DNA from: Gammaproteobacteria bacterium
Lineage (GTDB): Bacteria; Pseudomonadota; Gammaproteobacteria; JAABTG01
Assembly (NCBI GenBank): GCA_017999615.1
Contig: JAGNLM010000004.1
Location: 450 to 64,449, forward strand
Length of the DNA: 64,000 nucleotides
Direction: 5' to 3'
The number at the start of each line of letters is the position of its first letter. Positions within the stretch are counted from its first letter, which is position 1. Below, one piece after another: positions 2,831 through 20,885 of this stretch. Both the position numbers and the translations under genes were made by a program. A model generated the notes under the pieces. The model was given only the letters and a program-made list of their open reading frames with translations, was not told the origin of the DNA and ran no database searches.

Positions 2831-3651
2831 CGCGGGTCGACTCTACCGCGCAGGATCCGCTCGGCGTACTCCCGGTCGGAGACCTTGTCGACGTCCACCG
2901 CGGCCTCGGGATACGGCAAGAGCACGGTCCCGATCCGCACACCCAACTGGAGCGAAAGCCGCTCCAGGGCTTGGCCGAGGGTCAAGCGCCCCGTGAGGTA
3001 GCGCAGGACCGTTCCCCAGCCGAGCGCCCGCAGCATGCGCCAGGGCCGCTTGCGCTCCCCCTCGACGCGCCGCCAGAAGTCCGCCACACCCCGGGCCGCG
3101 GGTGAGAGGAAGGCGTAGAGATTGCACCCGCTGTAGACGTCGTCCCGAAAGCGCAGGCCCGTGCGGTGCATGCCGGGAAAGGCGGCCATGACCTCCTTGT
3201 AGCGGGCGAGCCCCACGACCAGTTCCGAGCCGGCCCTTCGCGCGTGGCCGCAGAAGTACTCCACCACCTCGGGGCGCAGCAGCGCGTGGTCCCCCGTGGT
3301 GAGGAGCACTGGCTCCGACTCGGGCAGGCTCTGCAGGGCCGCCAGCGCACTCGTGCTCGGGGTCGGACCAGGGGGCAGCCAGTCCCAGGCTCCCGTGGCC
3401 ACACCCGCGCGTAGCTCGCCGTCCTGCTCCAGGGCCTCCCGGGGTGGACCGCAGAGCACGCAGCGGCCCACCTGGGGACTGCCCGCGAGGGCGTCGAGGA
3501 CACGCAACAGCATGGCCCGCCCGCCGACCGGGACCAGGGACTTGTAGCGAACCCCGGCGGAGAGCGCCAGCGGGTCGTCGGGGGTGCGGTCGCCCGCGAG
3601 CACGACCGCCGTGAAACGCGGCGCTTCGTCCCGGACGCTAGCGGGGGACAC
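2827..3651 (-). CDS. MobA-like NTP-transferase family protein
   Basis: 274 aa with an N-terminal MobA-like nucleotidyltransferase fold. TAVVLAGDRTPDDPLALSAG followed by KSLVPVGGRAML near residues 14-48 is a variant of the GGxSxRxG...K loop, and LLTTGDHALL supplies the usual Asp pair region. The C-terminal half, with YSGCNLYAF and many basic residues, is not assigned to a domain. The start is GTG at 3651, with GAGGG eight bases upstream. It is divergent from the bCerS-like gene, 73 bases away, and convergent with the nucleotidyltransferase at 2060-2830. Because the Gly/Arg loop is unusual, catalytic activity is not certain. A role in head-group supply for the neighbouring lipid genes is only inferred. 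Confidence 0.62.
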   Translation of the reverse strand: MSPASVRDEAPRFTAVVLAGDRTPDDPLALSAGVRYKSLVPVGGRAMLLRVLDALAGSPQVGRCVLCGPPREALEQDGELRAGVATGAWDWLPPGPTPSTSALAALQSLPESEPVLLTTGDHALLRPEVVEYFCGHARRAGSELVVGLARYKEVMAAFPGMHRTGLRFRDDVYSGCNLYAFLSPAARGVADFWRRVEGERKRPWRMLRALGWGTVLRYLTGRLTLGQALERLSLQLGVRIGTVLLPYPEAAVDVDKVSDREYAERILRGRVDPR

Positions 3652-3724
3652 GGCAGTTGACCCTCGAGGCCGCCATAACCATCATTCGATCCTCCCTCAG
3701 CGACAGGCCTCTGGCACCTTCCCC

Positions 3725-4843
3725 ATGGCGATCAGCATACGCGAAGTCGAGACCCGGGCCGACCGCAAGGAATGGGTGCGCTTTGCCTTCGAGCTCTACC
3801 GGGACGACCCGCACTGGGTCCCGCCGATCATCTCCGACGACCACGCCTACTTCGACCCGGATCGAAACCCCGCCTTTGAAGTGAACCGGGCTCGGCGATT
3901 CCTCGCGCAGTCGGGAGGCCGCACCGTCGGCCGGGTCTGCGCCAGCGTCAACGAGCTCGAGGCCGGGAAGCTCGGCCACCTGCGGGGACGCTTCGGGTGG
4001 TTCGAGTCCATCGACGACCCGGAGGTCGCCGGACGTCTCCTGGAAGCCGCCCGCGATTGGCTGCGCGGGCAGCAGTGCACGGAGATGACGGGGCCCCAGG
4101 GGTTCACGGACCTCGATCCGGAGGGACTCCTGATCGAGGGATTCGAGCGCCTGCCCACCATCAGCGGAAGCTACAACCCGCCCTACTACCGGCAGCTCCT
4201 CGAGGGCTTCGGACTCACCCGGGACGCCGACTACATCGAGTATCGCCTGCGCGTCCCGGACGAATCGCCGCTGCTCGAGCGCCTGCGCAAGCGCTACGGT
4301 GGGAACGACCGGTACCGGGTCGTGACCTGCCGGAGCCGCCGCGAGCTGCTCGGACACGCGCCGGCCATCTGGGCGTTGCTGGAAGCCGCCTTCGCCCCGC
4401 TCTACGGGGTGGTACCGCTCACCGACACCCAGCGCGAGTACTACACCCGAAAGTACTTCAACTACCTCGACCCGGAGCTGGTGAAGCTGCCCTTCTCCCG
4501 CGAGGGCGAGCTGGTGGGATTCTTCATCGGCATGCCGGGGCTGAGCCGGGCCCTGCAGCGCGCCCGGGGCCGTCTGCTGCCCTTCGGTTTCCTGCCGATC
4601 CTGCGCGACTACCGCCGCCCGGAGACGGTGGAGTTCCTGCTGGCCGGGGTGAAACCGGGCGAGCCCTCCGCCATCGTCACAGCGGTCACGCTGATCGACA
4701 TGTACGACACGCTGCGCCGGCGGGGCGTGCGCTTCATGGAGACCAACCGCGAGCTCGAGGACAACACCACCGTCAACCGGATCTGGCTCAATTTCGAGCA
4801 GGACTACTTCCGCCGCTCGCGCGTGTACCGGATGCCGGTCTGA
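3725..4843 (+). CDS. GNAT-fold acyltransferase-like protein, candidate bacterial ceramide synthase
   Basis: 372 aa. The N-terminus shows the pattern FELYRDDPHWVPPIISDDHAYFDPDRNPAFE, then FLAQSGGRTVGRVCA, of a widespread proteobacterial family of GNAT-like proteins. To my recollection the ceramide synthase bCerS of Caulobacter belongs to this family; I could not check this. If so, it N-acylates a sphingoid base made by the Spt-like enzyme at 11011-12219. The C-terminal half has a second GNAT-like part ending MDTLRRRGVRFMETNRELEDN. The ATG at 3725 was chosen as the first good start, although its ribosome site is weak. A metallophosphatase and a HIT gene follow closely in the same direction. Family is likely; the ceramide assignment rests on gene context. 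Confidence 0.58.
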   Translation: MAISIREVETRADRKEWVRFAFELYRDDPHWVPPIISDDHAYFDPDRNPAFEVNRARRFLAQSGGRTVGRVCASVNELEAGKLGHLRGRFGWFESIDDPEVAGRLLEAARDWLRGQQCTEMTGPQGFTDLDPEGLLIEGFERLPTISGSYNPPYYRQLLEGFGLTRDADYIEYRLRVPDESPLLERLRKRYGGNDRYRVVTCRSRRELLGHAPAIWALLEAAFAPLYGVVPLTDTQREYYTRKYFNYLDPELVKLPFSREGELVGFFIGMPGLSRALQRARGRLLPFGFLPILRDYRRPETVEFLLAGVKPGEPSAIVTAVTLIDMYDTLRRRGVRFMETNRELEDNTTVNRIWLNFEQDYFRRSRVYRMPV

Positions 4844-4860
4844 GGTGGCGAGACCCTGAC

Positions 4861-5844
4861 GTGACGGAACTGGTGCTCGCCCACCTCTCCGACCCGCACC
4901 TCACCCATCTGGGGGAGGTGCGCGGCCGGGAGCTCCTGAGCAAGCGGGTTCTCGGGTACCTCTCCTGGCGCACGCACCGCCGGCACGTGCACCGCTCGGA
5001 GGTCCTGGACGCGCTCCTCACCGACCTGCGCGGCGTCGCCGCAGACCAGGTGGTCGTCACCGGGGACCTCACCCACATCGGTCTGCCCCAGGAGTTCCGC
5101 CAGGCAGCCGCCTGGCTGCCCCGCATCGGCGCACCGGACCGCGTGTTCGTCATCCCGGGAAACCACGACGCCTACCGGTGGGCCCCCTGGTCCGAGACCT
5201 TCGCGCTCTGGGCCCCGTACCTCGCCTCCGACCCAGGGGCTCCGGCGGCGTCCACCGACGGCCGGGCCCCCCTGCCGACCCTGCGCGTGCGCAACGGCGT
5301 GGCCTTGATCGGTCTCAGCACCGCGCGACCGTCCCCTCCCTTCATGGCCACCGGCCGGATCGGACGGGCGCAGCTCGAGGCCCTGGGGGACATGCTCCGC
5401 ACGACCGGGGAGCGAGGGCTCTTCCGGGTGCTGTTGATCCACCATCCCCCGGTGCCCGGCAGCATCCGCTGGCGCAAGCGGCTCACCGACGCGCCCGCGC
5501 TGGGTGCGGTGCTGGCCGAGCGGGGTGTCGAACTGGTGCTCCACGGTCACGCCCACCGCGACTCCCGTCTCTGGCTCCCGACCCCCGCCGGAAGGGCCCC
5601 GGTCATCGGCGTGCGGTCCGCATCAATGCACGGCCCGGACGCGGCGCGGCGCGCCCAGTACCATGTGTTCCGTATCTCGCGCCGGGGGCGAGGCTGGAAC
5701 GTGCGCCTCTCGGTGCGGGAATACGCGCCCGAGGAGCACCGCTTCACCCCGGTGGGCGCGTGGGAGGTGGACTCGCCCGGCCCCCGGGAGAGGGGCACAG
5801 ACAGCGACAGGGAGAAGGAGATGGAGACGGAGACGGAGACATGA
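4861..5844 (+). CDS. Calcineurin-like metallophosphoesterase
   Basis: 327 aa with all metallophosphoesterase motifs in order: LSDPHLTH near residue 9, VVTGDLTHIG, PGNHDAY, LLIHHPP and LHGHAHRD. These bind two metals and cleave phosphomonoesters or diesters. The start is GTG at 4861, 17 bases after the bCerS-like gene. The end overlaps the HIT gene by ATGA, so the two are translationally coupled. The C-terminal tail DSDREKEMETETET is low-complexity and encoded by GGAGAC hexamer repeats. Substrate unknown. In the lipid island it could act on a nucleotide-linked or phospholipid intermediate (like LpxH or a phosphatase of UDP/CDP-linked lipids), which is inference. Confidence 0.85.
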   Translation: MTELVLAHLSDPHLTHLGEVRGRELLSKRVLGYLSWRTHRRHVHRSEVLDALLTDLRGVAADQVVVTGDLTHIGLPQEFRQAAAWLPRIGAPDRVFVIPGNHDAYRWAPWSETFALWAPYLASDPGAPAASTDGRAPLPTLRVRNGVALIGLSTARPSPPFMATGRIGRAQLEALGDMLRTTGERGLFRVLLIHHPPVPGSIRWRKRLTDAPALGAVLAERGVELVLHGHAHRDSRLWLPTPAGRAPVIGVRSASMHGPDAARRAQYHVFRISRRGRGWNVRLSVREYAPEEHRFTPVGAWEVDSPGPRERGTDSDREKEMETETET

Positions 5845-6275
5845 ACGAGACCATTCGCCGGTTCGGCTACCCCGCGACCCTCATCCGGGAGTATCCCGAC
5901 TGGGTCGTCCTGCTGCGCCCCCGGCAGGCCACCCTGGGGACGCTCGTGGTCGCCTGCAAGGACGACGTCCTGCGGCTCTCCGACGTGTCCCTCGACGCCT
6001 TCGCCGCGCTGAAGCAGGTGGCGGTCGACGTGGAGACGACCCTGCGTGCCGAGTTCGACTGCCAGCGCATCAACTACCTGATGCTGATGATGGTCGACCC
6101 GCACGTCCACTGGCACGTCCTCCCCCGCTACCACAGCCCGAGGACCTTCGCCGGCATCACGTTCCCGGACCCCGGCTGGCCAGCCCTGCCGGACCTCTCC
6201 TTCGCGACCCCGACCGAGCCGGGCGTGCAGGCCGCGCTGGTGGAGCGTCTGCGGGCGGCGTGGCCGAAGAGCTGA
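5841..6275 (+). CDS. HIT family hydrolase/transferase
   Basis: 144 aa. The histidine triad is at residues 88-92 in DPHVHWHVLPRY (H-V-H-W-H-V), the signature of nucleotide hydrolases and transferases such as Hint, Fhit and GalT relatives. The length fits a single HIT domain. It overlaps the metallophosphoesterase stop (ATGA at 5841-5844), so it is coupled to it. A pyrophosphatase-type HIT enzyme such as Cdh (CDP-diacylglycerol hydrolase) would fit a lipid-nucleotide pathway, but the sequence does not prove substrate. Confidence 0.85.
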   Translation: MNETIRRFGYPATLIREYPDWVVLLRPRQATLGTLVVACKDDVLRLSDVSLDAFAALKQVAVDVETTLRAEFDCQRINYLMLMMVDPHVHWHVLPRYHSPRTFAGITFPDPGWPALPDLSFATPTEPGVQAALVERLRAAWPKS

Positions 6276-6329
6276 ACCGCCACCCTGACCCTCGACCCAC
6301 CCTCTCCCTTCTCGGTACCCCAGGGCCCC

Positions 6330-7601: not shown

Positions 7602-7722
7602 CCTTTGCCAGGAACCGAAGTCCTGAGATGACTTCTGAGGCAATTATGTTCCCGACAGATCCTCGCCCCACGATTGCGTTTCCGACGCGACTGCTCGCGA
7701 CCCGCGGAGGCCCGGGACCCAA

Positions 7723-9244: not shown

Positions 9245-9273
9245 CTGTCGGCCTGCTGGGTCAGTGTTCATCC

Positions 9274-10995
9274 TTACGCAAGAGGTCGCGCTCCGGAAGC
9301 CGCGAATTGTCCCACGGGCATGGGTACCAACGCCCCGTCTTCCAACCTCACCACCCGGTCCGCGATCTCGGCCAGCCCCGTCTGGTGCGATACGGCCAGC
9401 ATCGTCACCTCGCCCCTCAACCGGGCCAGCGTCTCGCACAACGCCGCCTCGCTCGCAGGGTCCAGCGCGCTGGTCGCCTCGTCGAGGATCAGGAGCTTCG
9501 GGCGGCGGACCAGCGCCCGGGCAATGGAAATGCGCTGGCGCTGACCACCCGAGAGCATGCTGCCCCGCTCACCGACGGTCGTCTGCATCCCTTCCGGCAT
9601 CGCACTCACGAACTCCCACGCCCCGGCTGCGCGCAACGCTCGCTCCGCGTCGCCCTCGGTGAGGTCGGGGTCACCCAGGATGACGTTGTGCAGCACGCTC
9701 TCGTGCAGCAGCAGGGTCTCCTGGGGAACGTAGCCGATCATCCGGCGCCACGCCTGGAGGTTGCACTCGCCCAGGGCAACCCCGTCCAGCGTCAGTCGGC
9801 CGGACGTGGGCTCGAGCAGACCGGTCACCAGGTCGAGGATGGTCGTCTTCCCCGCACCCGAAGGCCCCACGATCGTGGTGAAGGAGCTCGCTGGAAGCCT
9901 CAGGGTCAGGCCGCGCAGGATGGGCCGGTCGCCGAACGCGAAGTGCACGTCCTCGAGGGCCAGTTCGCGCTCGAACACCGGTGTACAGCCGTGGGGCTCG
10001 GCCTCAGGCGACCCCTCCGCTCGGTCGATGGTGCCCCGCAGCGACCAGTAGGCGCTCTCGTTGACCGACATCTTCTGATATTCGTGCTGCAGCTTGCCCG
10101 CGAGCTTCAGCACCCGCAGCAGGAGCAGCATCAGGACCACGACGCTCGCGAGAGGCAGGCCCCAGACGTTCACCACCAGGTAGGCGGCGCCAGCGACGAA
10201 GGCGATAGCCACGGGCTCGTGGATCGCCCGCAGGCCCTCGACGCTCAGGACCTCCTTGCGCATCGCCTTGTTCATGCGTCGCGTCTCCGCCTCCAGCACC
10301 ACGTTGGCCCCGCCCGCGAGCCCCATGGTCTTGAGCGCCTTCACCGACTGCAGCGTGTCCGCCATGCGCCGCAACAGCGACACGAGCACGTCCGTCTGCC
10401 GGCGCCCGGCGCGGCGGGCCTTGCGCACCAGCCGCCCCAGGGAGAGCGTGATGGCCGCCCCCCCCAGCACCGCCGCGAGCGTGGCCTGCCAGGACACGAA
10501 GAGGGCAGCGACCGTGTACACCAACGTCTCGACGGCGTGCGCGAGCGCCCGTGCGCCGCTCAGATAGGCGTTGGATGCGCGCACCGTCTCCGTGGCCATC
10601 GCGTTGGCGAGCGAGCCCACCGGCTGATGCAGGAAGAACTCCCAGCGGGCGCGCAGCAAGGCACGCAGCAGCCGCAGGCGCAGGTCGGTGCCGATCTGCG
10701 CCACCGTGTACCCGACGTGGCGATTGGCCAGCAGCACCATCGCGGCCTTCAGGCTGACGCCGACGACGATGATCAGCAGCAGCGGCCCGAGGGATGGGTC
10801 GATGCCGAGGCCGTGGAGGAACTTCCCCAACCCACGCTCGCTCTGCCCCCCACTCTCGGCGTTGGCCGCAAGGTCCAGGATGGGGAACAGCGCCGACAGG
10901 CTGATCCCCTCGAACACACCCGCCACCAGAAGGGCGACCAGGGTGACCAGCGTGCGCCGGGGGTAGGCCCGGGCGATCTCACGGAGGAATCTCAT
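9274..10995 (-). CDS. ABC exporter, fused membrane and ATPase domains (MsbA-like)
   Basis: 573 aa half-transporter. The N-terminal ~310 residues hold about six hydrophobic helices (LVALLVAGVFEGISLSALFPIL is the first). The ATPase domain follows with Walker A GPSGAGKTT, the signature LSGGQRQRISIARAL and Walker B LLILDEATSALD. The last residues contain the His switch (LAVSHQTGLAE). This is the architecture of exporters of lipids, peptides or drugs. It lies 15 bases downstream of the Spt-like gene on the same strand, so it is probably in its operon. Flipping a sphingolipid or glycolipid product is a reasonable guess but unproven. Confidence 0.85.
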   Translation of the reverse strand: MRFLREIARAYPRRTLVTLVALLVAGVFEGISLSALFPILDLAANAESGGQSERGLGKFLHGLGIDPSLGPLLLIIVVGVSLKAAMVLLANRHVGYTVAQIGTDLRLRLLRALLRARWEFFLHQPVGSLANAMATETVRASNAYLSGARALAHAVETLVYTVAALFVSWQATLAAVLGGAAITLSLGRLVRKARRAGRRQTDVLVSLLRRMADTLQSVKALKTMGLAGGANVVLEAETRRMNKAMRKEVLSVEGLRAIHEPVAIAFVAGAAYLVVNVWGLPLASVVVLMLLLLRVLKLAGKLQHEYQKMSVNESAYWSLRGTIDRAEGSPEAEPHGCTPVFERELALEDVHFAFGDRPILRGLTLRLPASSFTTIVGPSGAGKTTILDLVTGLLEPTSGRLTLDGVALGECNLQAWRRMIGYVPQETLLLHESVLHNVILGDPDLTEGDAERALRAAGAWEFVSAMPEGMQTTVGERGSMLSGGQRQRISIARALVRRPKLLILDEATSALDPASEAALCETLARLRGEVTMLAVSHQTGLAEIADRVVRLEDGALVPMPVGQFAASGARPLA

Positions 10996-11010
10996 GGTGG
11001 CCGGGTGGGT

Positions 11011-12219
11011 CTAGGGAGCCCCCGTCCCCCCCGCCTCCCCCGCGATCGGCCGCAGGGCGAGGAAGGCCGCGAGGATGGCGTCGACCTGCTCCGGCGTGTG
11101 GGCCGCGCTCAGGCTGCAGCGCAGCAGGCAGGCCCCCGAGGGCGTGGCGGGCGGAAGGATCAGGTTGACGTAGACACCGCGCGCCAGCAGGTCGTGCCAC
11201 CAGACCAGCGCCTGCTCCTGGCTTCCCACCTCCACCGCCACCACCGGGCTCGGCTGGGGCCCCAGCCGGAAACCGGCGCCCGCGAGCCCGTCGTAGAGGT
11301 GATGGACGTTGCGCCAGAGGTGCTCGCGCAGTTCCTCGCGCTCGCGCAGGATGCGCAGGGCGACGCGGGTCGAGGCGATGACCGAGGGCGCGGGCGAGGC
11401 GGTGAAGATGTAGGAGCGCACCGCGTTGCGCATCAGGTCGAGCTCCGGGTGGCGGCTGACGCAGAACCCCCCGACCGAGCCGAGGCTCTTGCTGAAGGTG
11501 CCGACCACGAGGTCGACGTCGTCCTCCACGCCTGCCTCCTGGCAGAGGCCCCGCCCGGTCGCCCCGAGCACGCCAAGCGAGTGCGCCTCGTCCACGAGCA
11601 GACAGCCTCCCAGCTCCCGCTTGACCGCCGCCATCTCGGCGAGCGGGGCGCGGTCGCCGAGCATGCTGTAGATGCCCTCCACCACGATGAGGGTGCGCTC
11701 CGCCCTCTCGCCCAGCCGGCGCAAGCGCTTCTCGAGGTCGGCCGCCTCGTTGTGCCGGAAACGGACCACGTCGGCCCCGCTCAGGCGCGTGCCCTCGTAG
11801 ATGCTCGCGTGGCAGTCGGCGTCGAGGAGGATCGTGTCGCCCTGTCCTGCCAGGGTGCTGACGACCCCCATCGTCGCCAGGAAGCCGGTGGAGAACACGA
11901 CGGCGGAGGGTACCCCGTAGAATTCCGCGAGCTCGCGCTCGAGCGCCAGGTGGCTGCCATACGTGCCGTTCGCCATGCGCGAGCCGGTGGTTCCGGTGCC
12001 CTGCTCCGCCACGGCCCGCTGGGCGGCCTCGATGCATTCGCGCTCGAAGGTCAATCCGAGGTAGTTGTTGGTGCCGGCCAGGATCACCCGCCGGCCCTCG
12101 ATGAGGCCCTCGGTGGCCGAGACGATCCGCTCGGTCACCACGCCGATGGGCAGGGTACCGAACGCCGCGAGCTGGGCCCGGGTGGCCGCGAGCGGCTGGA
12201 ATTTCTCGAATAGCTTCAT
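11011..12219 (-). CDS. spt: Serine palmitoyltransferase-like alpha-oxoamine synthase
   Basis: 402 aa PLP enzyme of the alpha-oxoamine synthase family (AONS, KBL, HemA, SPT). Conserved residues: GTGTTGSRMANGTYGSH at 74-90, VDEAHSLGVLG with Asp210 and His213, and TFSKSLGSVGG with the Schiff-base Lys244. Alone, sequence cannot separate SPT from BioF. No other biotin genes are nearby, while the neighbourhood is acyl-ligase, ACP, reductase and lipid kinase, so serine palmitoyltransferase (first step of ceramide synthesis) is favoured. The ATG at 12219 has GAAGGGG about 10 bases upstream. The gene is divergent from the LptF-like gene and precedes the ABC exporter. Confidence 0.7.
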   Translation of the reverse strand: MKLFEKFQPLAATRAQLAAFGTLPIGVVTERIVSATEGLIEGRRVILAGTNNYLGLTFERECIEAAQRAVAEQGTGTTGSRMANGTYGSHLALERELAEFYGVPSAVVFSTGFLATMGVVSTLAGQGDTILLDADCHASIYEGTRLSGADVVRFRHNEAADLEKRLRRLGERAERTLIVVEGIYSMLGDRAPLAEMAAVKRELGGCLLVDEAHSLGVLGATGRGLCQEAGVEDDVDLVVGTFSKSLGSVGGFCVSRHPELDLMRNAVRSYIFTASPAPSVIASTRVALRILREREELREHLWRNVHHLYDGLAGAGFRLGPQPSPVVAVEVGSQEQALVWWHDLLARGVYVNLILPPATPSGACLLRCSLSAAHTPEQVDAILAAFLALRPIAGEAGGTGAP

Positions 12220-12297
12220 GGCAGGGGCCCCTTCACCGCGTCGGTGGCGGTAGCATACCGTATCCCTGACACCCCACCACGTACTCCTGAGCCTGCG

Positions 12298-13395
12298 TTG
12301 ATCGCGACCCGGTACATCGCCCGCGAGATCTATCAGCCCTTCCTGGCGGTGGTGACGGTGCTGCTGGTGGTCTTCGCCGTGTACACCACGGCCATCGTCC
12401 TGAACGACGTGGTGGCGGGCGCGCTTCCCGCCCACGTCGTCCTGCGCCTGGTGCTGATCAAGTCGCTCATCGCGCTGGAGGTCCTGCTGCCCGTGGCGTT
12501 CTACTTCAGCGCCGTCATCGGGCTGGGGCGCCTGCACGCCAGCTCGGAGATGCTGGCGCTCGCCGCCTGCGGGATGGGGGAGCCCCGGGTACTCAGGACC
12601 GTCCTGCTACCCGCCTTCGCCGTCGCCTTGCTGTCAGCCGTACTCTCGGTGAGCGTGCGGCCCTGGGCCTTCCAGCAACTCTATGTGCTGAGGGCCGTGG
12701 CCGACGCCGAGTTCGACATCGAGGACCTGGAGGCAAAGCAACTCTTCGTCAGCCCGGACTCGCGCTATGCCGTCTATGCGGTGTCGGTGGACCACGCGGC
12801 GCGCAGCGCCCACGACGTGGTCGCCCAGATGCGCAACGGGGAACGGCTGCTCGTGATCGAGGCCGAGAGCCTCCATCAACCTCCGCAGCGTCTCGAGGAC
12901 AGCCCGGTCTTCGAATTCTCGCGGGGCCGGGCCTTCCGCATCGACCGCCGGGGGACGCGCGACACGACGATGGACTTCGGGGTGCTGACGGTGCGGCTCG
13001 AGGCACCGGAACCCCCGGAGATCGGCTACAAGATCAAGATGCAGAGCACGGCGGCCCTGAGTCACGCCACGGCAGGCAAAGGACTCGCGGAGTTCCAGTG
13101 GCGCCTCTCCACGCCGGTGTTGACGCTCCTCCTCGCCGCGCTCTCGGTACCCCTCAGCCGCGCACCCCCGCGCCGAGGCCGGTTCCTTGGCCTGGTGATC
13201 GCGATGCTCGCCTTTGCCCTCTTCTACGCCCTGCTCCTCAGCGCCAAGAACCTGGTCCACGACCGGCTGGTGGGCCCGGTGCCCGGCCTGTGGTGGCCCA
13301 TCGCGCTCCTCGCGCTGACGGTCCTCGCCCTGCTAGCCTGGCCCTGGGTCCGGCGCCGCTGGCACCCGCGATCTGCCTCACCCGCCTATGGCTGA
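12298..13395 (+). CDS. LptF-like permease
   Basis: 365 aa, LptF/LptG (YjgP/YjgQ) family. It has N-terminal membrane helices starting at IATRYIAREIYQPFLAVVTVLLVVFAVY, a periplasmic beta-rich domain in the middle (about residues 130-260) and C-terminal helices from LSTPVLTLLLAALSVPL. In the Lpt machine such pairs extract lipid A from the inner membrane. A TTG start at 12298 is chosen because it gives the usual LptF opening (MIxxRYIxREI); a GTG at 12244 is the alternative. It overlaps the next gene by eight bases. Adjacent spt suggests it may extract a sphingolipid rather than LPS, but it could be the organism's general lptF. Confidence 0.8.
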   Translation: MIATRYIAREIYQPFLAVVTVLLVVFAVYTTAIVLNDVVAGALPAHVVLRLVLIKSLIALEVLLPVAFYFSAVIGLGRLHASSEMLALAACGMGEPRVLRTVLLPAFAVALLSAVLSVSVRPWAFQQLYVLRAVADAEFDIEDLEAKQLFVSPDSRYAVYAVSVDHAARSAHDVVAQMRNGERLLVIEAESLHQPPQRLEDSPVFEFSRGRAFRIDRRGTRDTTMDFGVLTVRLEAPEPPEIGYKIKMQSTAALSHATAGKGLAEFQWRLSTPVLTLLLAALSVPLSRAPPRRGRFLGLVIAMLAFALFYALLLSAKNLVHDRLVGPVPGLWWPIALLALTVLALLAWPWVRRRWHPRSASPAYG

Positions 13396-14485
13396 CGGGC
13401 GCGGGTCCACGCCGCGCGTCACTCTGATCGACCGCTACGTCGGCCGTACGGTCCTCGGCGCCCTCGTGCTCGTGCTGCTCGCGCTCCTCCCGCTGTTCAC
13501 CATCCTCGACCTGGTCCAGCAGCTCGACGAGGTGGGCAAGGGCAACTACGGCTTTCTCGACGCGGTTCGCTACGAGCTGATGGTGCTCCCGCGCCGGGCG
13601 CTCGACCTGCTGCCGTTCCTCGTCCTCACGTCCACCACCATCGGGCTCGCGATCCTCTCTCACTTCGGCGAAACCATGGCCATGCGCTCCTGCGGCGTCT
13701 CGCGGCGCCGGCTCGGGCTCGCGGTGGTCAAGGTCGGGCTCGCGCTGATGGTGCTGGCAGCCCTCTCCGACGAATTCGTCGCCTCGCCCCTGAATCGGCA
13801 GGCCACCCGGGAGCGGGCCGTTGCGCTGGAGGGTCGGGAGGTGCTGCTCAGCGAGGACGGCTTCTGGATGCACGCCGGCTCCCGGTTCGTCAGCATCGGC
13901 CAGGTGCTCCACGGCCGCCTGCCCCAGGAGATCGACATTCTCGAGGAGGCCGAGGACGGCCACCTGCAGCGATTCGTCCACGCGCGCGAGGCCGACATCG
14001 CGAACCCCAGGTGCTGGCTGCTGCGGGACGTCATGGTCAAGCACCTCGGCCCGGGGGCGCCCCTCTCCGAACGGATGGAGGAGCTCCCGTGGGACTCCTA
14101 CCTGTCGCTGAAGCAGGTCGAGATGCTGCAGCTGGAGCCCCATGTGATGTCGCCGGCGCAGCTCTTCGGCTATGCGAGGTATCTGGAAAAGACCGGTCAG
14201 AACCCGGCCCGTTACGAGATGGCGTTCTGGCAGAGGGCCACCTTGCCGCTCGTGACCAGCGCCATGGTCCTGCTCGCCCTGCCCGCGGGCTTCGGCCGGC
14301 CTCGGTCGTCGGACACCGGCAAGCTTGTCCTGTTGGCGGTTGCCGTGGGTCTGGCCTTCCAGGTCGTCAGCCAGCTCGCGGCAAACGCCGGGCTGGTGTT
14401 CTCCATCCCGGCGCCGGTGGTGACCCTCGGGCCGCTGCTGCTCGTCTTCGCGGGGGCCTTCTGGCTGTTGCGCAGGGCCGGCTGA
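13388..14485 (+). CDS. LptG-like permease
   Basis: 365 aa partner of the LptF-like protein, YjgP/YjgQ family. It opens with TLIDRYVGRTVLGALVLVLLALLPLFTILDLVQQLDEV, the usual LptG start. A periplasmic domain follows (about residues 120-255) and final helices (LPLVTSAMVLLALPAGFG; VGLAFQVVSQLAANAGLVF). It overlaps the LptF-like stop by eight bases, so the pair is coupled. LptB, LptC and LptA are not nearby. It is convergent with the Tam41-like gene across a 35-base gap that carries a tRNA-like sequence. Confidence 0.82.
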   Translation: MADGRGSTPRVTLIDRYVGRTVLGALVLVLLALLPLFTILDLVQQLDEVGKGNYGFLDAVRYELMVLPRRALDLLPFLVLTSTTIGLAILSHFGETMAMRSCGVSRRRLGLAVVKVGLALMVLAALSDEFVASPLNRQATRERAVALEGREVLLSEDGFWMHAGSRFVSIGQVLHGRLPQEIDILEEAEDGHLQRFVHAREADIANPRCWLLRDVMVKHLGPGAPLSERMEELPWDSYLSLKQVEMLQLEPHVMSPAQLFGYARYLEKTGQNPARYEMAFWQRATLPLVTSAMVLLALPAGFGRPRSSDTGKLVLLAVAVGLAFQVVSQLAANAGLVFSIPAPVVTLGPLLLVFAGAFWLLRRAG

Positions 14486-14520
14486 ATCGGGAGGGCGCTC
14501 CCCCACCCGCTGAGCTACCC

Positions 14521-15531
14521 CTACCGGAAGGCACCGCGCCGATACAGGCGCCAGGCGAGCCCCCAACCGTAGATCAGCGGGTGACGGCGCTCGCGCTCCG
14601 AGGCCTCGACCCGCACGCCCGAGTGGCGCTCGAGCTTCCATAGGAGGTAGTCGACCCCACCCTGGAAGGTGAATGCCGACTTCGCAAGGCGCAGCGCCGA
14701 CAGGGTCTTGCCCTGGACCCGCCGCGCGGACCAGGCCAGCCGGCTCCGCCGCCGGGTCCGCGGCGGTATGCTGGCCTCGTGCAGGGGAATGCTGGCCTCG
14801 CCCATCGAGCCCCCCTCTCCGGCGACGCTGCGCACGGGCCAGGCCAGCACGCCCAGGGCGGGCGCGGTGACCTCCCGGTAATACTCCGGGTCGCTCTCGA
14901 CGATCAGGGCACTGCGCTGGCTCTTCTCGGCCCGCAGCTCCGTGGCGTAGCTGAGGGCGAGTGCCCGTTCCCAGAGGTCCGCCTCCGTGAAGCGCTCGGG
15001 CAACGCCGGCAGGGCCCGCCAGAGCAGGGTGACCACCGCCTGCCCCAGGGCCTGCAGGAGCTCTCCCCTCACCCGCTCGTCCGCAGCGTAGAGGATCGCC
15101 GTCGGCTGGGCCAACCGGCCCCACAGGTACGACTGGAACCAGCGTGCGGAAGTCCCCCGGAGCAGGTGGCGCATGGAGAACACGGCGTACTTGCACCGCA
15201 CCCGCCCGGCCGGGACTGGCACTTCGAGGTAGAACACGTTCGGGGGCAGCAGCGCGTTCGCGAGGGCCGTGAGGGGATCGCGGTACGCCGAGCGGTAGCG
15301 GTCCACCACCACGTACAGGTCCACGAGCCCGTCCAGGGCGTTGCCCGAGCGCAGGCAGGAGCCGTAGAAGAGGATGCCGCGCAGCGCCGGGCCATACCTG
15401 CGCCGAAGCGCCTCGCGCAGGGCACCGAGCTCCGTCCCGGGCACGTGGCGCGAGGCCAGCCGAACGAGCGCGGCGACGAGGCCCGTTCCCGGCGCCGGCG
15501 GGCTAGAAGCGGAGGAAAGCGACCCTTCCAC
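14521..15531 (-). CDS. Tam41-like nucleotidyltransferase (putative CDP-lipid synthase)
   Basis: 336 aa. Residues 54-77 hold a polymerase-beta-type active site: FYGSCLRSG (G57-S58) followed by Asp71 and Asp77. Further on, Lys114 in KYAVFS and SYLWGRLAQP at 134-143 match the segments that mark the Tam41 family, the mitochondrial CDP-diacylglycerol synthases. This is my reading by eye. In the family the reaction is CTP + phosphatidic acid giving CDP-diacylglycerol. Here the gene follows a lipid kinase and a CDP-alcohol phosphotransferase in one operon, so a ceramide phosphate could be the acceptor instead. The start is GTG at 15531, overlapping the kinase gene by 29 bases. Protein class is likely; substrate is inferred. 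Confidence 0.6.
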   Translation of the reverse strand: MEGSLSSASSPPAPGTGLVAALVRLASRHVPGTELGALREALRRRYGPALRGILFYGSCLRSGNALDGLVDLYVVVDRYRSAYRDPLTALANALLPPNVFYLEVPVPAGRVRCKYAVFSMRHLLRGTSARWFQSYLWGRLAQPTAILYAADERVRGELLQALGQAVVTLLWRALPALPERFTEADLWERALALSYATELRAEKSQRSALIVESDPEYYREVTAPALGVLAWPVRSVAGEGGSMGEASIPLHEASIPPRTRRRSRLAWSARRVQGKTLSALRLAKSAFTFQGGVDYLLWKLERHSGVRVEASERERRHPLIYGWGLAWRLYRRGAFR

Positions 15532-16510
15532 CCACCGACACCCGCACCGGTCCCGCCTTCCGCGACGCCTGGTAGACCTCCCCGTCCACGGTCACGGGAC
15601 CGTCCATCTCCAGGCTGAGACTGTCGAGCTTCCCGCTGTGGTAACCGTGCTCCGGCGTGGCGAACCGCCCTGCACGCCCCCAGAAGAGAGGGAGCAGCGT
15701 GCGCGCCGCGTGGCCAGCACGCGCCCTCAGCCGGCTGTGGTAGAAGGCACCCTCGGCGTCTCCCCAGTAGGGGCGAAGCCCTGCGAACAGTCGCTCGAGC
15801 GAACTGGCCAGCACCAGGAGATAATCCTGTTCCTGGTCTTCCTCCTCGCCGCCCGCCTGTTCCCTGGCCACGCGTCCCGCGACCGTCATCGGCCGGGGCG
15901 AGGCGTACCGCTCGTCACCGCGGGCCATCGCCCAGAGAACCCGCAGGGTGCAGAGGGCCGGGGCAAGGCTGTCCCGCAGACCCCGGCTGTGAACCCTCCG
16001 GTGGCAGAACTCGATCCCCCGGACGATGGCGCCGGTCCCGAAGAACATCCCGAACTGGGCTGGGCCCTCGGGGCTCACGTCGACCCGGAGCACGGGCCGC
16101 TCGACGAGCGTGCCCTCCAGCTCGCCCGACGGGTCCAGGAGCCGGCGCAGCGACGGCAGCAGGGCCTCCCTCGACCCGACGTCTCCCGCCGTCATGTTGG
16201 TCGTACCCCCGCGCAGCAGTACGAGCAGGGGCAGCCGGGGAAACGGCCCCTCGAGCAGGAGCGTGGTGAGCACTGCCGCCACGGTCCCGTCGCCGCCGTT
16301 GACCACAAGCAGGTCCGGCGGGTCGGCTCGCATCTCCCTCAGCGCCTCGGAGACGGCCCGCTGGCCCCGGGCCTCCCGGTACACGACGCCCGATCGCGCC
16401 GACAGCAGCGCCCGCACCTCTGCCAGGTGTCGACGGTTACGGCCGCTCTCGGGATTGGTGACGCAGGCGAGGCGCAGCGGCCGGCGCAGTCGGATGGGCT
16501 GGTCGGCCAC
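15503..16510 (-). CDS. Diacylglycerol/ceramide kinase-like lipid kinase
   Basis: 335 aa with a DAGK catalytic domain. The NGGDGT motif at residues 71-76 after LLVV binds ATP, and the C-terminal beta sandwich ends with a TVDGE-like segment (MDGPVTVDGEVYQ). Members phosphorylate lipid alcohols, diacylglycerol or ceramide. The ceramide kinase CpgB of Caulobacter is of this type by recollection. The start is GTG at 16510, 15 bases after the CDP-alcohol phosphotransferase stop. Between spt-associated genes, ceramide is the favoured substrate but diacylglycerol or undecaprenol cannot be excluded. Confidence 0.7.
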   Translation of the reverse strand: MADQPIRLRRPLRLACVTNPESGRNRRHLAEVRALLSARSGVVYREARGQRAVSEALREMRADPPDLLVVNGGDGTVAAVLTTLLLEGPFPRLPLLVLLRGGTTNMTAGDVGSREALLPSLRRLLDPSGELEGTLVERPVLRVDVSPEGPAQFGMFFGTGAIVRGIEFCHRRVHSRGLRDSLAPALCTLRVLWAMARGDERYASPRPMTVAGRVAREQAGGEEEDQEQDYLLVLASSLERLFAGLRPYWGDAEGAFYHSRLRARAGHAARTLLPLFWGRAGRFATPEHGYHSGKLDSLSLEMDGPVTVDGEVYQASRKAGPVRVSVGGRVAFLRF

Positions 16511-16525
16511 GGCCGGGCGGCGGCG

Positions 16526-17755
16526 TCAGCTCCGGCCCCCGTTCGGGGACCGGGCCCCCCCGCCAGCGAACCAGCGCACCGCCAGGGAGCGGTCGGTCGG
16601 GTCCTTTCCGGCGCCTTCGAGCCAGGAGACCAGCGGCCCCACGGAGGCGCGCTCGCGGTAGGCCATCGCCAGACGAGCCAGAAGGAACGCCGCGGACAGC
16701 AGGGTCCAGAGGGTCACCGCCTCGAGCCCCAGGTCGGGCCGGCCCGCCAGGGCGCCCAGGGTGAGCAGGATGAGCGAAGGGTTGCGGCGCGCGGTGACGA
16801 GGCGCGAGTAGGAGTCGACCTTGCGCCAGCAGAAGATCCCGAAGCGCCCGAGCCACTGCTTGAAGGCCCCCTCCGTCAACCGCCCGAGGATGTAGCCCAC
16901 GAAGAGCAGCCAGACCGTTACCTTGACGGACGCCGGCAGCAGCAGCGGCTGGTAAGAGGACAGGCCAACGGCCCAGGCGAGATACCAGAAGGGGGGAGAG
17001 ATCAGGTCCAGGATGTGGTCGAAGAAGTGACCGAACGTGCTGGAGGTCACGGTGACCCGCGCGAGCTTACCGTCCACGGTGTCCAGATAGGTCATCAGCC
17101 AGGCGAGCGCCAGCCCCCACCCGAAGTGGCCGTACCCGAACAGGAACAGGACCACAGTCGCGAGGGCCCAGTTGAGCGCCGTGACCTGATTGGGCGTGAT
17201 GCCCCAGTGGGCGCAGAGGCGCACACCCCACTGGGCAGGCACTGGCCAGACGAAGCGCGTCACCAGGTCCGTGATGCCCTTGTAGGCGGCGCCAAAGAGG
17301 AGCCGCTCCAGTTCGGCCCGCGACCCCTCCGTGATGGGGAGCACGAACGGCGGGTCCGCCTTGCGCAGACGCTCCTGGAAGGCAGGCGTCAGATCGTCCG
17401 CGGAGACCGTGCGCAGACCCCCCGGAAGGGGCTCCCCGGCGCCCCGGGCCTGCAGGCGCGCCGCCACCTCCCGGGCCAGGGCGCCCGGCACGTGCGCGGC
17501 CACGGGGATCGCCTCTTCTCCCACGCCCGCCCGCAGCACGGTGCCGGGGGCGTCGGTCAGCGCCCACAGCGTCCGGGCGTCCATCAGATAGTCGCCCCGC
17601 AGCAGGAGAACCGTGTCGCCGGCCGGAACCTGGGCCAGGCTGTCCACGAGGGCGAGGCTGCCCTTTCGGCGCATGAGCCGGCGCACCCGCTCGCGCAGGG
17701 ACAGGTCCCAGAGGCGGACCGGCGTCTCGTCGAGGATGTGAATGACGGTGGCCAT
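16526..17755 (-). CDS. CDP-alcohol phosphotransferase with N-terminal degenerate nucleotidyltransferase-like domain
   Basis: 409 aa. The CDP-alcohol phosphotransferase signature D-x2-DG-x2-AR-x8-G-x3-D-x3-D is complete: Asp225, Asp228, Gly229, Ala232-Arg233, Gly242, Asp246, Asp250. Several membrane helices follow. It would move a phosphoalcohol from a CDP-linked donor to an acceptor alcohol. Residues 1-165 form an extra soluble domain (MATVIHILDETPVRLWDLSLRER..., LLLRGDYLMDARTLWAL). It recalls nucleotidyltransferases such as those fused in IPCT-DIPPS enzymes, but the GxGTR loop is absent, so it is probably not catalytic. ATG at 17755 is one base after the ACP stop. Head group unknown. Confidence 0.72.
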   Translation of the reverse strand: MATVIHILDETPVRLWDLSLRERVRRLMRRKGSLALVDSLAQVPAGDTVLLLRGDYLMDARTLWALTDAPGTVLRAGVGEEAIPVAAHVPGALAREVAARLQARGAGEPLPGGLRTVSADDLTPAFQERLRKADPPFVLPITEGSRAELERLLFGAAYKGITDLVTRFVWPVPAQWGVRLCAHWGITPNQVTALNWALATVVLFLFGYGHFGWGLALAWLMTYLDTVDGKLARVTVTSSTFGHFFDHILDLISPPFWYLAWAVGLSSYQPLLLPASVKVTVWLLFVGYILGRLTEGAFKQWLGRFGIFCWRKVDSYSRLVTARRNPSLILLTLGALAGRPDLGLEAVTLWTLLSAAFLLARLAMAYRERASVGPLVSWLEGAGKDPTDRSLAVRWFAGGGARSPNGGRS

Positions 17756-17756
17756 G

Positions 17757-18008
17757 TCAGCCCGCCCCTTCGACCAGCCGGTCGATCTGCAGGGCCAGGT
17801 CCCGGACCGTGCGCACGTCCGGCAGCACGTTCAGCGGCACCGTGATGTCATAGCGGTCCTCGACGTCCATCAGCAGCTCCATGATCTTCAGGGAACTGAG
17901 GTCCAGGTCCGCCGTGAGGTCGGTGTTCTCGTCGATGACCTGGCCTTCCGGGGCGAAGGGCCGCAGGATTTCGAAAAGGGCCGAGCAGACTTCCGCGTGC
18001 GTGGGCAT
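17757..18008 (-). CDS. Acyl carrier protein, atypical DSL motif
   Basis: 83 aa acyl carrier protein. The phosphopantetheine site is LTADLDLSSLKIMELLMDVE, with Ser39 as attachment residue. The usual Asp before it is Ser38 (SSL instead of DSL), which sets it apart from fatty-acid-synthase ACP. The start ATG at 18006-18008 follows AAGGAG closely. An ATG at 18032 is possible but has no ribosome site. It is followed directly by the CDP-alcohol phosphotransferase. In the ceramide locus it would carry the acyl chain loaded by the ligase at 19074-20885 to the acyltransferase. Confidence 0.85.
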   Translation of the reverse strand: MPTHAEVCSALFEILRPFAPEGQVIDENTDLTADLDLSSLKIMELLMDVEDRYDITVPLNVLPDVRTVRDLALQIDRLVEGAG

Positions 18009-18097
18009 GGCTCCTTGACCGCCTGTGTCCATACGAATGTGATGTTAGCGGGTTTCGCGCGAACCGCCCCGCGCCAGCGCGCGCGGGCCCTGCGGGC

Positions 18098-19108
18098 TCA
18101 CGCCCCACCCTCCGGGGTTCCCGGGGCCAGGGTACGTTGCAGCCCCTCGGAGAACTCGACCTCCGGCCGCCAGCCCGTTGCTGCGCTGAAGGGCGCGTTG
18201 TCGCAGACCCAGTCGGGGTGGCCCAGCTCCCGGACCTTGCCGGGCGTCAGCATGGGCACCGCCCCGAAGAGCCGGGCCCGCGCGGCGTTCACGCGGGCCG
18301 CCCAGGCGAGCAGCGCGGTCGGCACGCTCAGAAGGCGCACAGGGCGACCCCTGAGACGGGCGGCGATCCCGGCGGCCTCGGGCCACGAGTAGCCTCCGGG
18401 ACGGCCGTCGTGGAGCTCGAAGGGCCCCTCCGGCGCGGCATCCAGGTGCAGCAGACGCTCGACCGCCGCGACGAGGTCGTCCACGAAGAGCAGCGAAAAT
18501 CGCCCGCTCCCGTTCCCCGGTGCCAGGGCGAGGCCGCGCATCATCATGCGCAGCAGCGGGCGCATCTCCCGGTCGCCCGGCCCGTACACGGCCGACGGAC
18601 GAAGCACGACGCGCCGCAGCCCTGCGCCCGCCGAGGCCAGGGCCTCCTCCCCCGCGCGCTTGCTCGCCGCGTACGGGGAGAGCCCCGGCTCCCGCGCGGC
18701 CAGCGACGACAGCTGAACGAAGAGCGGTGCGGGATGGGCATTCGCCGCCGCCCGCGCGAGGTGGAACACCCCTTCGACGTTGGCGGTCCGGAAATCGGAA
18801 TCGTCGAGCCCCCGCACGGCACCGGCGCAGTGGACCACGGCCCGGGCGCCGTCCACCAGGCGGGCGAGGCTCTCGGGCTGGGCCAGGTCGCCAGGCACCC
18901 ACTCGATACCGGCCCGGCGCAGCCCCTCCGGGCGGGACTCCCCGCGCACGAGGGCCCTGACGAGCCAACCGCGGGCGGCGAGACGGCGCGCCGCCGCACC
19001 GCCGATGAAACCGGTCGCGCCGGTGATGGCGACGACCGACGCCTCCGGGGCCACCTCGCTCAAAGCGAAGGGATCAGGCGACGCGCAGGGCGCCCGCCGC
19101 CCCTTCAC
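18098..19108 (-). CDS. NAD-dependent epimerase/reductase, CerR-like
   Basis: 336 aa extended SDR. The Rossmann loop is GATGFIG at residues 30-36 and the catalytic pair is Tyr146/Lys150 in YAASK. In ceramide loci such an SDR reduces the 3-keto group of ceramide or the sphingoid base (CerR). The GTG at 19108 overlaps the preceding gene by 35 bases and has GAAGG upstream. A GTG at 19054 would leave the usual short N-terminus and cannot be excluded. The role is inferred from neighbours; sequence alone also fits sugar epimerases or hydroxysteroid-type reductases. Confidence 0.68.
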   Translation of the reverse strand: MKGRRAPCASPDPFALSEVAPEASVVAITGATGFIGGAAARRLAARGWLVRALVRGESRPEGLRRAGIEWVPGDLAQPESLARLVDGARAVVHCAGAVRGLDDSDFRTANVEGVFHLARAAANAHPAPLFVQLSSLAAREPGLSPYAASKRAGEEALASAGAGLRRVVLRPSAVYGPGDREMRPLLRMMMRGLALAPGNGSGRFSLLFVDDLVAAVERLLHLDAAPEGPFELHDGRPGGYSWPEAAGIAARLRGRPVRLLSVPTALLAWAARVNAARARLFGAVPMLTPGKVRELGHPDWVCDNAPFSAATGWRPEVEFSEGLQRTLAPGTPEGGA

Positions 19109-20885
19109 CGGCCTTCGCGTCCCCGGTCCGGGGAGCCGCGGCGGCCTGCTGGCCGCGCGAATCGATGAAGTTCTGGCGGGCCTTGGAGCGCGAGAGCTTG
19201 CCCGAGGAAGTCCGTGGCAGCGTCTGGGGCGGCACCAGCTCCACGTGACACTCGATGCCGAACTCCGAGCGCACGAGACCCTCGAGCCGCTTGACCAGGT
19301 CCGCCCGGACCGCGGGGTCCGTGTCGCGGTTCTGCACCACCATCATGACCCGCTCTTCGTCGTCGGACCAGGGCACCGAGAACGCCAGGCAATCGCCCGG
19401 ACGCACCTCCGGCTGCTGGTGGGCCAGGTACTCGAGGTCCTGGGGCCAGACGTTGCGTCCATTGACGATCATCAGGTCCTTGCTGCGACCCGTCAGGAAC
19501 AGGTTCCCTTCCGCGCGGTAACCGATGTCGCCGGTGTTGAGCCAGCCGTCCGGCGACAGGGTTTCGCTCGTCGACTGGGGGTCCCGGAAATAGCCCGACA
19601 TCACGCTGGGGCCCCGCAGGAAGATCGTGCCGGTCGTCCGGTCACCGAGGGGCTGCCCGCTCTCGTCCCGGACCTCCACCTCGAAGTCCGGTATGGGCGC
19701 ACCGCAGTTTACGAACGTGCTGATGCGCGCGGGGGACGCGTCCTCGTCGGAACCGGCTGCGACCGCCTTCCCTTCAACGGCGAGCCGCTCGCTGTCCACG
19801 CGGTCCACGGACACCCCGGTGCCCAGGGGCGAGAAACTCACCGCCAGGGCGCACTCGGCCATTCCGTAACACGGCAGGAAGGCGCCCGGATCAAAGCCGC
19901 TGGGTGCCACGGCCTCGGCGAAACGCTGGAGCACCTCCGGGTGGATCATCTCCGCGCCGACGCCGGCGACTCGCCACGCGCTCAAGTCGTAGTCCGCTGC
20001 CTCGCCCGGACGCAGGCGCCGGGCACAGAGCTCGAAGCCGAAGGGCGGGCTGAAGGAAATCGTGGCCTTCGACCGGGACAGCAGGCTGAGCCACTGGCGG
20101 GGACGCATGGCGAAGTCCCGTGTCGCGAGGTAATCGACCGAGACCTGCCCCGCCACGGGAGTCAGCACGAGACCGACCAGGCCCATGTCGTGATAGAACG
20201 GGAGCCAGGAGACCGCCCGGTCGCCGGGGCGCAGTTTCACGCCGTGGCGGATGATTCCCGCCAGGTTGCTGAGGACCGTTTCCTCGGTGATGGCGACACC
20301 GCGGGGGAACCGCGTGCTCCCGGAGGTGTATTGCAGGTAGGCGAGCTCACCGGGCCCCGATGGGACCAGCTCGTCCGTGCTCTCCGGCAAGGCGTCGAAC
20401 ACCGACGGCTCGCCCACGAGCCGCAGGTCCAGGTCCTGCGCCGCCTCCTTGAGGTATTCGAGGAATCCTGCAGGCGACATGGCCAGCGCCGCGGCCGAGC
20501 TCTCGAGCATGCCCCGCAGCAACTGCACGTAGGCGTTGTGGCTGCCGAGGCTGACATGCACCGGCACCGGCACCGGCACCAGGCCCACGTACTGGCACGC
20601 GAAGAAGAAACGCAGGAAATCCGGGGAGGTGTCCGCGACCAGGACGAGCCGGGACCCGCGCTCCAACCCGAGGCTCGCCAGCCGGCGTGCCAGCAGGAGC
20701 GCCTCCTCGCGCAAGCGCGAATAGGGCAGAACCGCCGTCAGTTCGCCGCGGGCCGAGTAGAAATTGCACCCCGTCTCGCCCAGCGCTGCGTAATCCAGCG
20801 CCTCCGCGAGATTCGTGAAGTCGGCAGCCCGAAAGGGCAACCGATTCATGGTCGGCGTGGGTCTCTGATCCGAGGATGCGCCCAT
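19074..20885 (-). CDS. Fatty acyl-AMP ligase / acyl-ACP synthetase (AasR-like)
   Basis: 603 aa, adenylate-forming enzyme of the FAAL/acyl-ACP synthetase class. Motifs: YTSGST at residues 186-191, YGMAECALAVSF, NTGDIGYRAEGN, and GRNVWPQDLEYLA (with the invariant hinge region). These activate a fatty acid as acyl-AMP and transfer it to CoA or a carrier protein. The neighbouring unusual ACP suggests acyl-ACP as product. The gene is first in a minus-strand operon of six. ATG at 20885 is used; the ATG at 20849 is alternative. A CACCGG run around 20560 encodes VPVPVPVHV. Assignment to ceramide synthesis is contextual. Confidence 0.78.
   Translation of the reverse strand: MGASSDQRPTPTMNRLPFRAADFTNLAEALDYAALGETGCNFYSARGELTAVLPYSRLREEALLLARRLASLGLERGSRLVLVADTSPDFLRFFFACQYVGLVPVPVPVHVSLGSHNAYVQLLRGMLESSAAALAMSPAGFLEYLKEAAQDLDLRLVGEPSVFDALPESTDELVPSGPGELAYLQYTSGSTRFPRGVAITEETVLSNLAGIIRHGVKLRPGDRAVSWLPFYHDMGLVGLVLTPVAGQVSVDYLATRDFAMRPRQWLSLLSRSKATISFSPPFGFELCARRLRPGEAADYDLSAWRVAGVGAEMIHPEVLQRFAEAVAPSGFDPGAFLPCYGMAECALAVSFSPLGTGVSVDRVDSERLAVEGKAVAAGSDEDASPARISTFVNCGAPIPDFEVEVRDESGQPLGDRTTGTIFLRGPSVMSGYFRDPQSTSETLSPDGWLNTGDIGYRAEGNLFLTGRSKDLMIVNGRNVWPQDLEYLAHQQPEVRPGDCLAFSVPWSDDEERVMMVVQNRDTDPAVRADLVKRLEGLVRSEFGIECHVELVPPQTLPRTSSGKLSRSKARQNFIDSRGQQAAAAPRTGDAKAGEGAAGALRVA

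Follow-up and report, generated by a model that had tools for sequence, protein, structure and literature searches.

The window analysed here is a stretch of 64,000 nucleotides (G000:C4:450-64449) from a gammaproteobacterial genome, a 2.47-Mb draft of 21 contigs that is 98.98% complete. It was found that a set of phosphosphingolipid genes spans positions 2060-20885 of the window (Table 1) and that the only LptF and LptG genes of the genome are nested among them. This cluster LptFG pair seems, from gene content and sequence, to have taken over from the normal pair for lipopolysaccharide (LPS) export, which suggests a way to trace the path of sphingolipids to the outer membrane.

The first-pass annotation described a ceramide-type locus at 11011-20885. 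Pfam and NCBIfam recovered all the families which it had named there, i.e., Spt, an acyl carrier protein (ACP), an acyl ligase, a CerR-like short-chain dehydrogenase/reductase (SDR), a DAGK-like kinase, a Tam41-like enzyme, and a CDP-alcohol phosphotransferase. The gene set is wider than this interval; its left part adds a CpgD-like gene, a second nucleotidyltransferase gene, the gene at the ceramide synthase (CerS) position, and an ABC exporter gene. The named genes had been taken to be adjacent. They do lie on one strand, in the order aasR, cerR, acp, cdpAP, cerK, and tam41 with overlaps or short gaps, followed further down by spt and the ABC exporter gene, but lptF and lptG, which had not been mentioned, sit on the plus strand between tam41 and spt. 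LptF/LptG, the CpgD-like protein, and the second nucleotidyltransferase, all absent from that annotation, carry the more interesting part of the locus.

Table 1. Genes of the phosphosphingolipid locus (positions in the window)
Feature	Position	Strand	Evidence
Predicted CpgD-like CTP:phosphoglycerate cytidylyltransferase	2060..2830	+	ATG start at 2060; NTP_transf_3/NTP_transferase; PDB best 1jyk (CTP:phosphocholine cytidylyltransferase), 66.6 bits
Predicted second nucleotidyltransferase, CC_1153-like	2827..3651	-	NTP_transf_3, 50.5 bits
N-acyltransferase at the ceramide synthase position, divergent CerS	3725..4843	+	Tandem GNAT fold in AlphaFold model
Calcineurin-like phosphoesterase, recurrent in cluster	4918..5844	+	Metallophos, 48 bits
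HIT-family protein, recurrent in cluster	5847..6275	+	HIT, 28.8 bits
ABC exporter adjoining spt, candidate flippase	9274..10995	-	ABC_tran, 110.5 bits
Serine palmitoyltransferase, spt	11011..12219	-	NF047599, 621 bits (cut-off 500)
lptF, sphingolipid-cluster type	12244..13395	+	TIGR04407, 244.8 (cut-off 230)
lptG, sphingolipid-cluster type	13388..14485	+	TIGR04408, 297.9 (cut-off 240)
Tam41-like cytidylyltransferase, CpgC/CC_1161-like	14521..15531	-	PF09139, 43 bits (cut-off 24)
Predicted DAGK-like lipid kinase, CpgB-like ceramide kinase	15503..16510	-	DAGK_cat, 43 bits
Predicted CDP-alcohol phosphotransferase with N-terminal extension, CpgA-like	16526..17755	-	PF01066, 51 bits, residues 187-287
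Specialised acyl carrier protein, AcpR-like	17757..18032	-	PF00550 (PP-binding), 35 bits
CerR-like SDR reductase	18098..19108	-	Epimerase, 96 bits
Acyl-ACP ligase, AasR-like	19074..20885	-	AMP-binding, 181 bits; NF006624 fatty acyl-AMP ligase, 806 bits (cut-off 600)

LptFG pairs in the window genome and its relatives

Spt is uncommon in the class. When 369 genomes were surveyed with the NF047599 model at E <= 1e-120, it was detected in 23 of them, with 21 above the cut-off of the model. The comparison set comprises 24 genomes, namely these 23, which include the window genome, and G001, a genome of the same genus that is outside the survey listing and whose Spt was seen in its cluster region. 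In the window genome, LptF and LptG each occur exactly once, inside the cluster. A cluster LptFG pair is present in 21 of the 24 genomes; 14 of these hold further LptF/LptG genes elsewhere, while in seven (the window genome G000, G002, G131, G153, G264, G325, and G339) the cluster pair is the sole one. In G114, G230, and G281, the only pair lies outside the cluster. Of the Spt-negative genomes, 21 were searched: exactly two LptF/G genes occur in 17, three in G008 and G013 (in G013, one is a 19.8-bit fragment), and no LptF/G match was found in G009 (62% complete) and G022 (0.4 Mb). The three genes of G008 occur without an LpxC match.

A phylogenetic tree of LptFG was made from joined LptF and LptG sequences (40 rows). 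A 19.4-bit fragment (G266:C105) was left out, while two partial rows were kept: the second pair of G124, split over two contigs, and the second copy of G269, a truncated LptG. All the 21 cluster pairs fall into one clade (starred, 100/100), and the window pair, judged by its sequence, belongs to this cluster-type (LptF2/LptG2) clade. Constraining it to join its family's housekeeping pairs was rejected by the approximately unbiased (AU) test (p = 0.00018). Four positions cleanly separate the housekeeping type from the cluster type. The proteins of the single-pair genomes look like the cluster type there, with no sign of convergence on the housekeeping type at these four positions.

Loss of the housekeeping pair

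The contig C204 of G001 has the gene order metG, apbC, dcd, lptG, lptF, and pepA. In the contig C12 of the window genome, dcd adjoins pepA; the lptG-lptF segment (2.26 kb) is missing, the contig is continuous, and the flanks are 92.7-94.8% identical to those of G001. The ratio of nonsynonymous to synonymous substitution rates (dN/dS) of dcd, pepA, apbC, and metG is 0.07-0.18, indicating purifying selection. In the Spt-positive genomes, pepA adjoins a non-cluster pair (in one case lptG alone) in 12 of the 15 regions examined, the exceptions being L091, L098, and L099. Since the pepA-lptFG arrangement is common in the relatives, the window lineage lost the pair rather than the relative gained it. 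The housekeeping pairs beside pepA belong to the same families as the cluster pair, above the equivalog cut-offs, but to a different clade, and the window genome is without a pepA-linked pair.

LPS genes in the genomes with a cluster pair

LpxC, LpxB, the WaaA-type family, and LptD were searched for in all the 24 genomes, and LpxD in 10 of them. LptD is present in all 24, with a single match each except in G017, which has a second, weak one. LpxC is present in 23 (missing in G325), the WaaA-type family in 21 (missing in G002, G325, and G335; weak in G131, with 26.8 bits, and in G339, with 26.6 bits), and LpxB in 20 (missing in G002, G131, G325, and G339), while LpxD is missing in G131, G325, and G339. 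The absences in G002 are weak because this genome is 85% complete. In the window genome, G153, and the closed G264 (closed meaning a single contig in the genome used, as for G264 and G325), LpxC, LpxD, LpxB, the WaaA-type protein, and LptD are all present with cluster-type LptFG only. G264, which belongs to another family, and its congener G153 repeat the state of the window genome.

G325, a single contig of 3.74 Mb (L084, L085), has Spt, LptD, and one cluster-type LptFG pair without a match to LpxC, LpxD, LpxB, or the WaaA-type family. By its gene content, it is a candidate for an LPS-free, sphingolipid-based gammaproteobacterium. Of the 21 genomes with a cluster pair, 4 of the 7 single-pair ones lack LpxB, as against 0 of the 14 two-pair ones (Fisher p = 0.0058). 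Counted by genus, which handles relatedness only roughly, the figures are 3 of 5 versus 0 of 10 (p = 0.022). G131 and G339 (L072, L088) have a single cluster-type LptFG and keep LpxC, while LpxD and LpxB are missing and the WaaA-type match is weak. Has the LPS pathway been reduced to one gene in these two?

Enzymes of the locus

The product of spt exceeds the equivalog cut-off of NF047599, the NCBIfam model for proteobacterial serine palmitoyltransferase (SPT), whereas it is below the NCBIfam cut-offs for bioF (338 of 426) and glycine C-acetyltransferase (296 of 460). In the PDB, serine palmitoyltransferases are its best matches (425 bits), against 208 bits for KBL and 175 bits for BioF. Thus, although the enzymes share a superfamily, it is hardly credible that this alpha-oxoamine synthase is a BioF- or KBL-like enzyme of a locus unrelated to sphingolipids; such an identity was ruled out by these scores. 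The first-pass annotation had let its ceramide reading stand or fall with such a grouping. The closest named record to the window Spt is a contig of an uncultured Ectothiorhodospiraceae metagenome-assembled genome (CALMKJ010000170.1; 94% identity). In two WOR-3 records (L137 and L138), whose spt is about 41% identical to that of the window, a CerS-like gene directly follows spt.

The AasR-, AcpR-, and CerR-like proteins which, with Spt, are expected of a locus for the phosphosphingolipids CPG and CPG2 are encoded together at 17757-20885. The AcpR-like protein scores under every NCBIfam ACP cut-off shown. The PDB matches of the CerR-like protein are NDUFA9-type complex I subunits, which the Caulobacter CerR also resembles (PMC11087976). 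The protein at the CerS position has no Pfam or NCBIfam match; its AlphaFold model (predicted local distance difference test score, pLDDT, 85.7) matches tandem GNAT acyltransferases (best 7q3a, E = 3e-14).

As for the head group, the CpgB-like kinase, the CpgC-like Tam41 protein, and the CpgA-like CDP-alcohol phosphotransferase score above the Pfam gathering scores, while the CpgD-like and CC_1153-like nucleotidyltransferases were recognized at the family level only. The kinase is far under the cut-offs of the NCBIfam lipid kinase models. The Tam41-like protein is a member of its family by Pfam and by fold: its predicted model (pLDDT 79.6) has Tam41 CDP-diacylglycerol synthases as the best PDB matches (mitochondrial 6ig4, E = 3e-10; bacterial 7ecd, E = 2.6e-6; also 6ig2), and the YGS..R and D...D.YV residues are invariant in seven aligned rows. 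Its substrate is a prediction. The CDP-alcohol phosphotransferase has PDB matches to archaeal AF2299 and PIPS. The metallophosphoesterase was assigned by family; in PMC11324152, no CC_1158 ortholog is reported for the gammaproteobacteria treated there, and neither CC_1166 nor CC_1158 has a reported ortholog in Azotobacter vinelandii and Pseudomonas luteola.

The ABC protein adjoining spt was rejected as MsbA (234 bits of the 602 needed for TIGR02203). An ABC exporter gene adjoins spt in several lineages, and its product is a candidate sphingolipid flippase.

Just upstream of aasR lies a gene for a MOFRL glycerate 2-kinase (21098-22420, minus strand). It would be expected to produce 2-phosphoglycerate, which CpgD prefers as its substrate, and the kinase was therefore considered as a source of this substrate. 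The gene is interrupted by one in-frame TAG, and nothing in the related cluster regions corresponds to its C-terminal part. For these two reasons, the kinase was not used in the mechanism proposed below.

Recurrence and selection of the cluster

Recurrence was counted in 23 other genomes (22 from the Spt survey and G001) within regions of up to 20 kb around the spt or lptFG/cerS/tam41 genes, taking in only genes inside the fetched stretches. The most frequent members are lptF, lptG, cerR, and acp (20 of the 23 regions each), followed by cerS (19), aasR (18), the CC_1153-like gene (17, usually adjoining cerS), tam41 (14), and the metallophosphoesterase gene (13). The cpgD-like gene was found in 11 regions, cerK in 10, cdpAP in 10 (including a weak 32-bit match in G114), the ABC exporter gene in nine, and the HIT gene in seven. 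This co-occurrence exceeds chance. Compared with G001, eight genes are under purifying selection (dN/dS 0.11-0.39); the ratio is 0.20 for LptF and 0.12 for LptG.

Comparison with known systems

It is known that Caulobacter has five genes for ceramide and six for the head group, along with second copies of Lpt genes, LptC2/F2/G2 (PMC11324152). In PMC12275187, no activity is assigned to CpgA or CpgC. By family and published descriptions, the window locus resembles CC_1168-CC_1152 of Caulobacter crescentus in spt, acpR, aasR, cerR, CpgA-D, CC_1153, LptF2, LptG2, and an acyltransferase at the cerS position. It differs in that CerS is divergent, the ABC exporter gene adjoins spt, and the cluster LptFG is the sole pair of the cell; unlike in Caulobacter, no LptC2 (CC_1168) was noticed in the window locus. 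Contiguous clusters are described in A. vinelandii and P. luteola (PMC11324152), and the window locus resembles them in being a contiguous set of CPG2 genes from a gammaproteobacterium. Since such clusters have been published for other gammaproteobacteria, the locus itself is of a known kind. The proposal of the first-pass annotation that the cell makes ceramide and a phosphorylated derivative gains support at the gene level from the match to the published CPG/CPG2 set (PMC11324152).

An NDP-activated ceramide has been proposed (PMC11324152), while the phrase "CDP-ceramide" was not found in the literature searched. Both PMC11324152 and PMC11087976 state that it is not known what carries bacterial sphingolipids to the outer membrane. 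The literature searched, with most subscription papers outside it, contained no report of LptFG replacement or of Lpt transport of sphingolipids.

Proposed pathway and alternatives

AasR would load a fatty acid onto AcpR, and Spt would join serine to this AcpR-borne fatty acid. The second chain would come from the GNAT-fold N-acyltransferase at the CerS position, and CerR would reduce the ketone. The DAGK-like kinase would produce ceramide 1-phosphate, which the Tam41-fold enzyme may activate or extend with CTP, while CpgD would make CDP-glycerate and the CDP-alcohol phosphotransferase would add the head group. The ABC exporter adjoining spt is the likely flippase. From the inner membrane, LptF/LptG would pass the lipid on to the Lpt bridge and to the single LptD of the cell.

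With a probability of roughly two in three, the locus serves to make and export a CPG/CPG2-type anionic phosphosphingolipid, and the cluster LptFG has replaced the housekeeping pair; because the genome has no other LptFG, this pair most likely handles LPS export too. The reactions and the head group are predicted from families and folds, and the dual transport from gene content. If the cluster LptFG carries the sphingolipid, an LPS-less genome should keep the pair and LptD, as is seen in G325. If it also carries LPS, the housekeeping pair can go while the LPS genes stay, as is seen in two families. A wider proposal is evenly poised: LptF2/LptG2 may be able to take over the whole Lpt machine, with one bridge and one LptD serving both a ceramide phospholipid and LPS. 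In Gammaproteobacteria, they may have displaced the housekeeping pair on more than one occasion, and they may be what persists once LPS is abandoned altogether, so that the sphingolipid route to the outer membrane would be the Lpt bridge. Both the single cluster-type LptFG together with LPS and sphingolipid genes, and the closed genome without the tested LPS genes but with LptD and cluster-type LptFG, point to this bridge. The route is testable by simple gene exchange, and it raises the question of how lipids so unlike each other could be accepted by a single transporter.

Several observations weigh against this interpretation. G281 has the sphingolipid cluster, while its sole LptFG is of the housekeeping type and lies outside the cluster. 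Therefore, a cluster-type LptFG is not required in every cluster-bearing genome. The third pair of G003 (G003:C2:1306315-1308422, L091) is inside the cluster clade though outside the sphingolipid cluster, and the non-cluster pairs of G159 and G269 are sister to the clade, all the remaining non-cluster pairs being outside; the clade is therefore an imperfect marker of function. The 21 cluster pairs as a single clade escaped rejection only narrowly (AU p = 0.061). The window genome is a draft in 21 contigs. In addition, the protein at the CerS position, which the first-pass annotation called bCerS-like, is homologous, in place, and of the tandem GNAT fold, but is an outlier. It is 24-31% identical to 31 other CerS-position proteins (some rows are one genome twice, e.g., L081 and L123), while most of these have a median identity of 42-54% to the rest and the two WOR-3 proteins have 34 and 37%. 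It keeps 30 of the 59 near-invariant columns, and the WOR-3 proteins keep 45 and 48. The low identity and the few near-invariant residues suggest that the window genus has a different N-acyltransferase at this position, possibly a replacement by another GNAT N-acyltransferase, and its acylation of the substrate is predicted only.

Is the cell instead losing its LPS? The housekeeping LptFG would have gone first, the Lpx genes would be relics or serve precursors only, and the outer leaflet would already be mainly sphingolipid. That such a path exists is shown by G325, which lacks all the four tested LPS genes, and by G131 and G339, which keep LpxC but have neither LpxD nor LpxB and only weak WaaA-type matches. 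However, the matches to all four LPS genes are strong in the window genome, G153, and G264, and LptD is kept, so that this explanation is unlikely. It is quite unlikely that the cluster LptF/LptG have nothing to do with the sphingolipid and are a second LPS exporter placed there by linkage. The two proteins do exceed the LptF and LptG equivalog cut-offs, and the transport role was put forward in PMC11324152 as a proposal rather than tested. On the other hand, the cluster pairs form one clade with one non-cluster pair inside, lptFG accompany the sphingolipid genes in most of the related regions, the pair persists in G325 although the tested LPS genes are missing there, and most Spt-negative genomes have exactly two LptF/G genes.

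The head group itself may be something other than phosphoglycerate, such as inositol phosphate, built by the Tam41-like protein, the CDP-alcohol phosphotransferase, and the nucleotidyltransferases. The best NCBIfam matches of the phosphotransferase are archaetidylinositol phosphate/phosphatidylinositol phosphate synthases, all far under cut-off, and CpgD-like enzymes resemble phosphocholine and inositol-phosphate cytidylyltransferases. Yet the full set, including two nucleotidyltransferases, matches the one genetically shown to make CPG/CPG2 (PMC11324152), and the formation of CDP-glycerate by CpgD has been demonstrated in vitro (PMC12275187). A different head group is thus not very likely, and the CPG/CPG2-type product with cluster LptFG as the exporter is preferred.

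Other features of the window

ARAGORN predicted a tRNA-Gln at 20379-20464; it lies inside aasR, is absent from the Rfam output, and was taken as a false positive. A selenocysteine tRNA (57817-57906) and a SECIS_3 element (62717-62775) are present in the window, and the genome probably uses selenocysteine.

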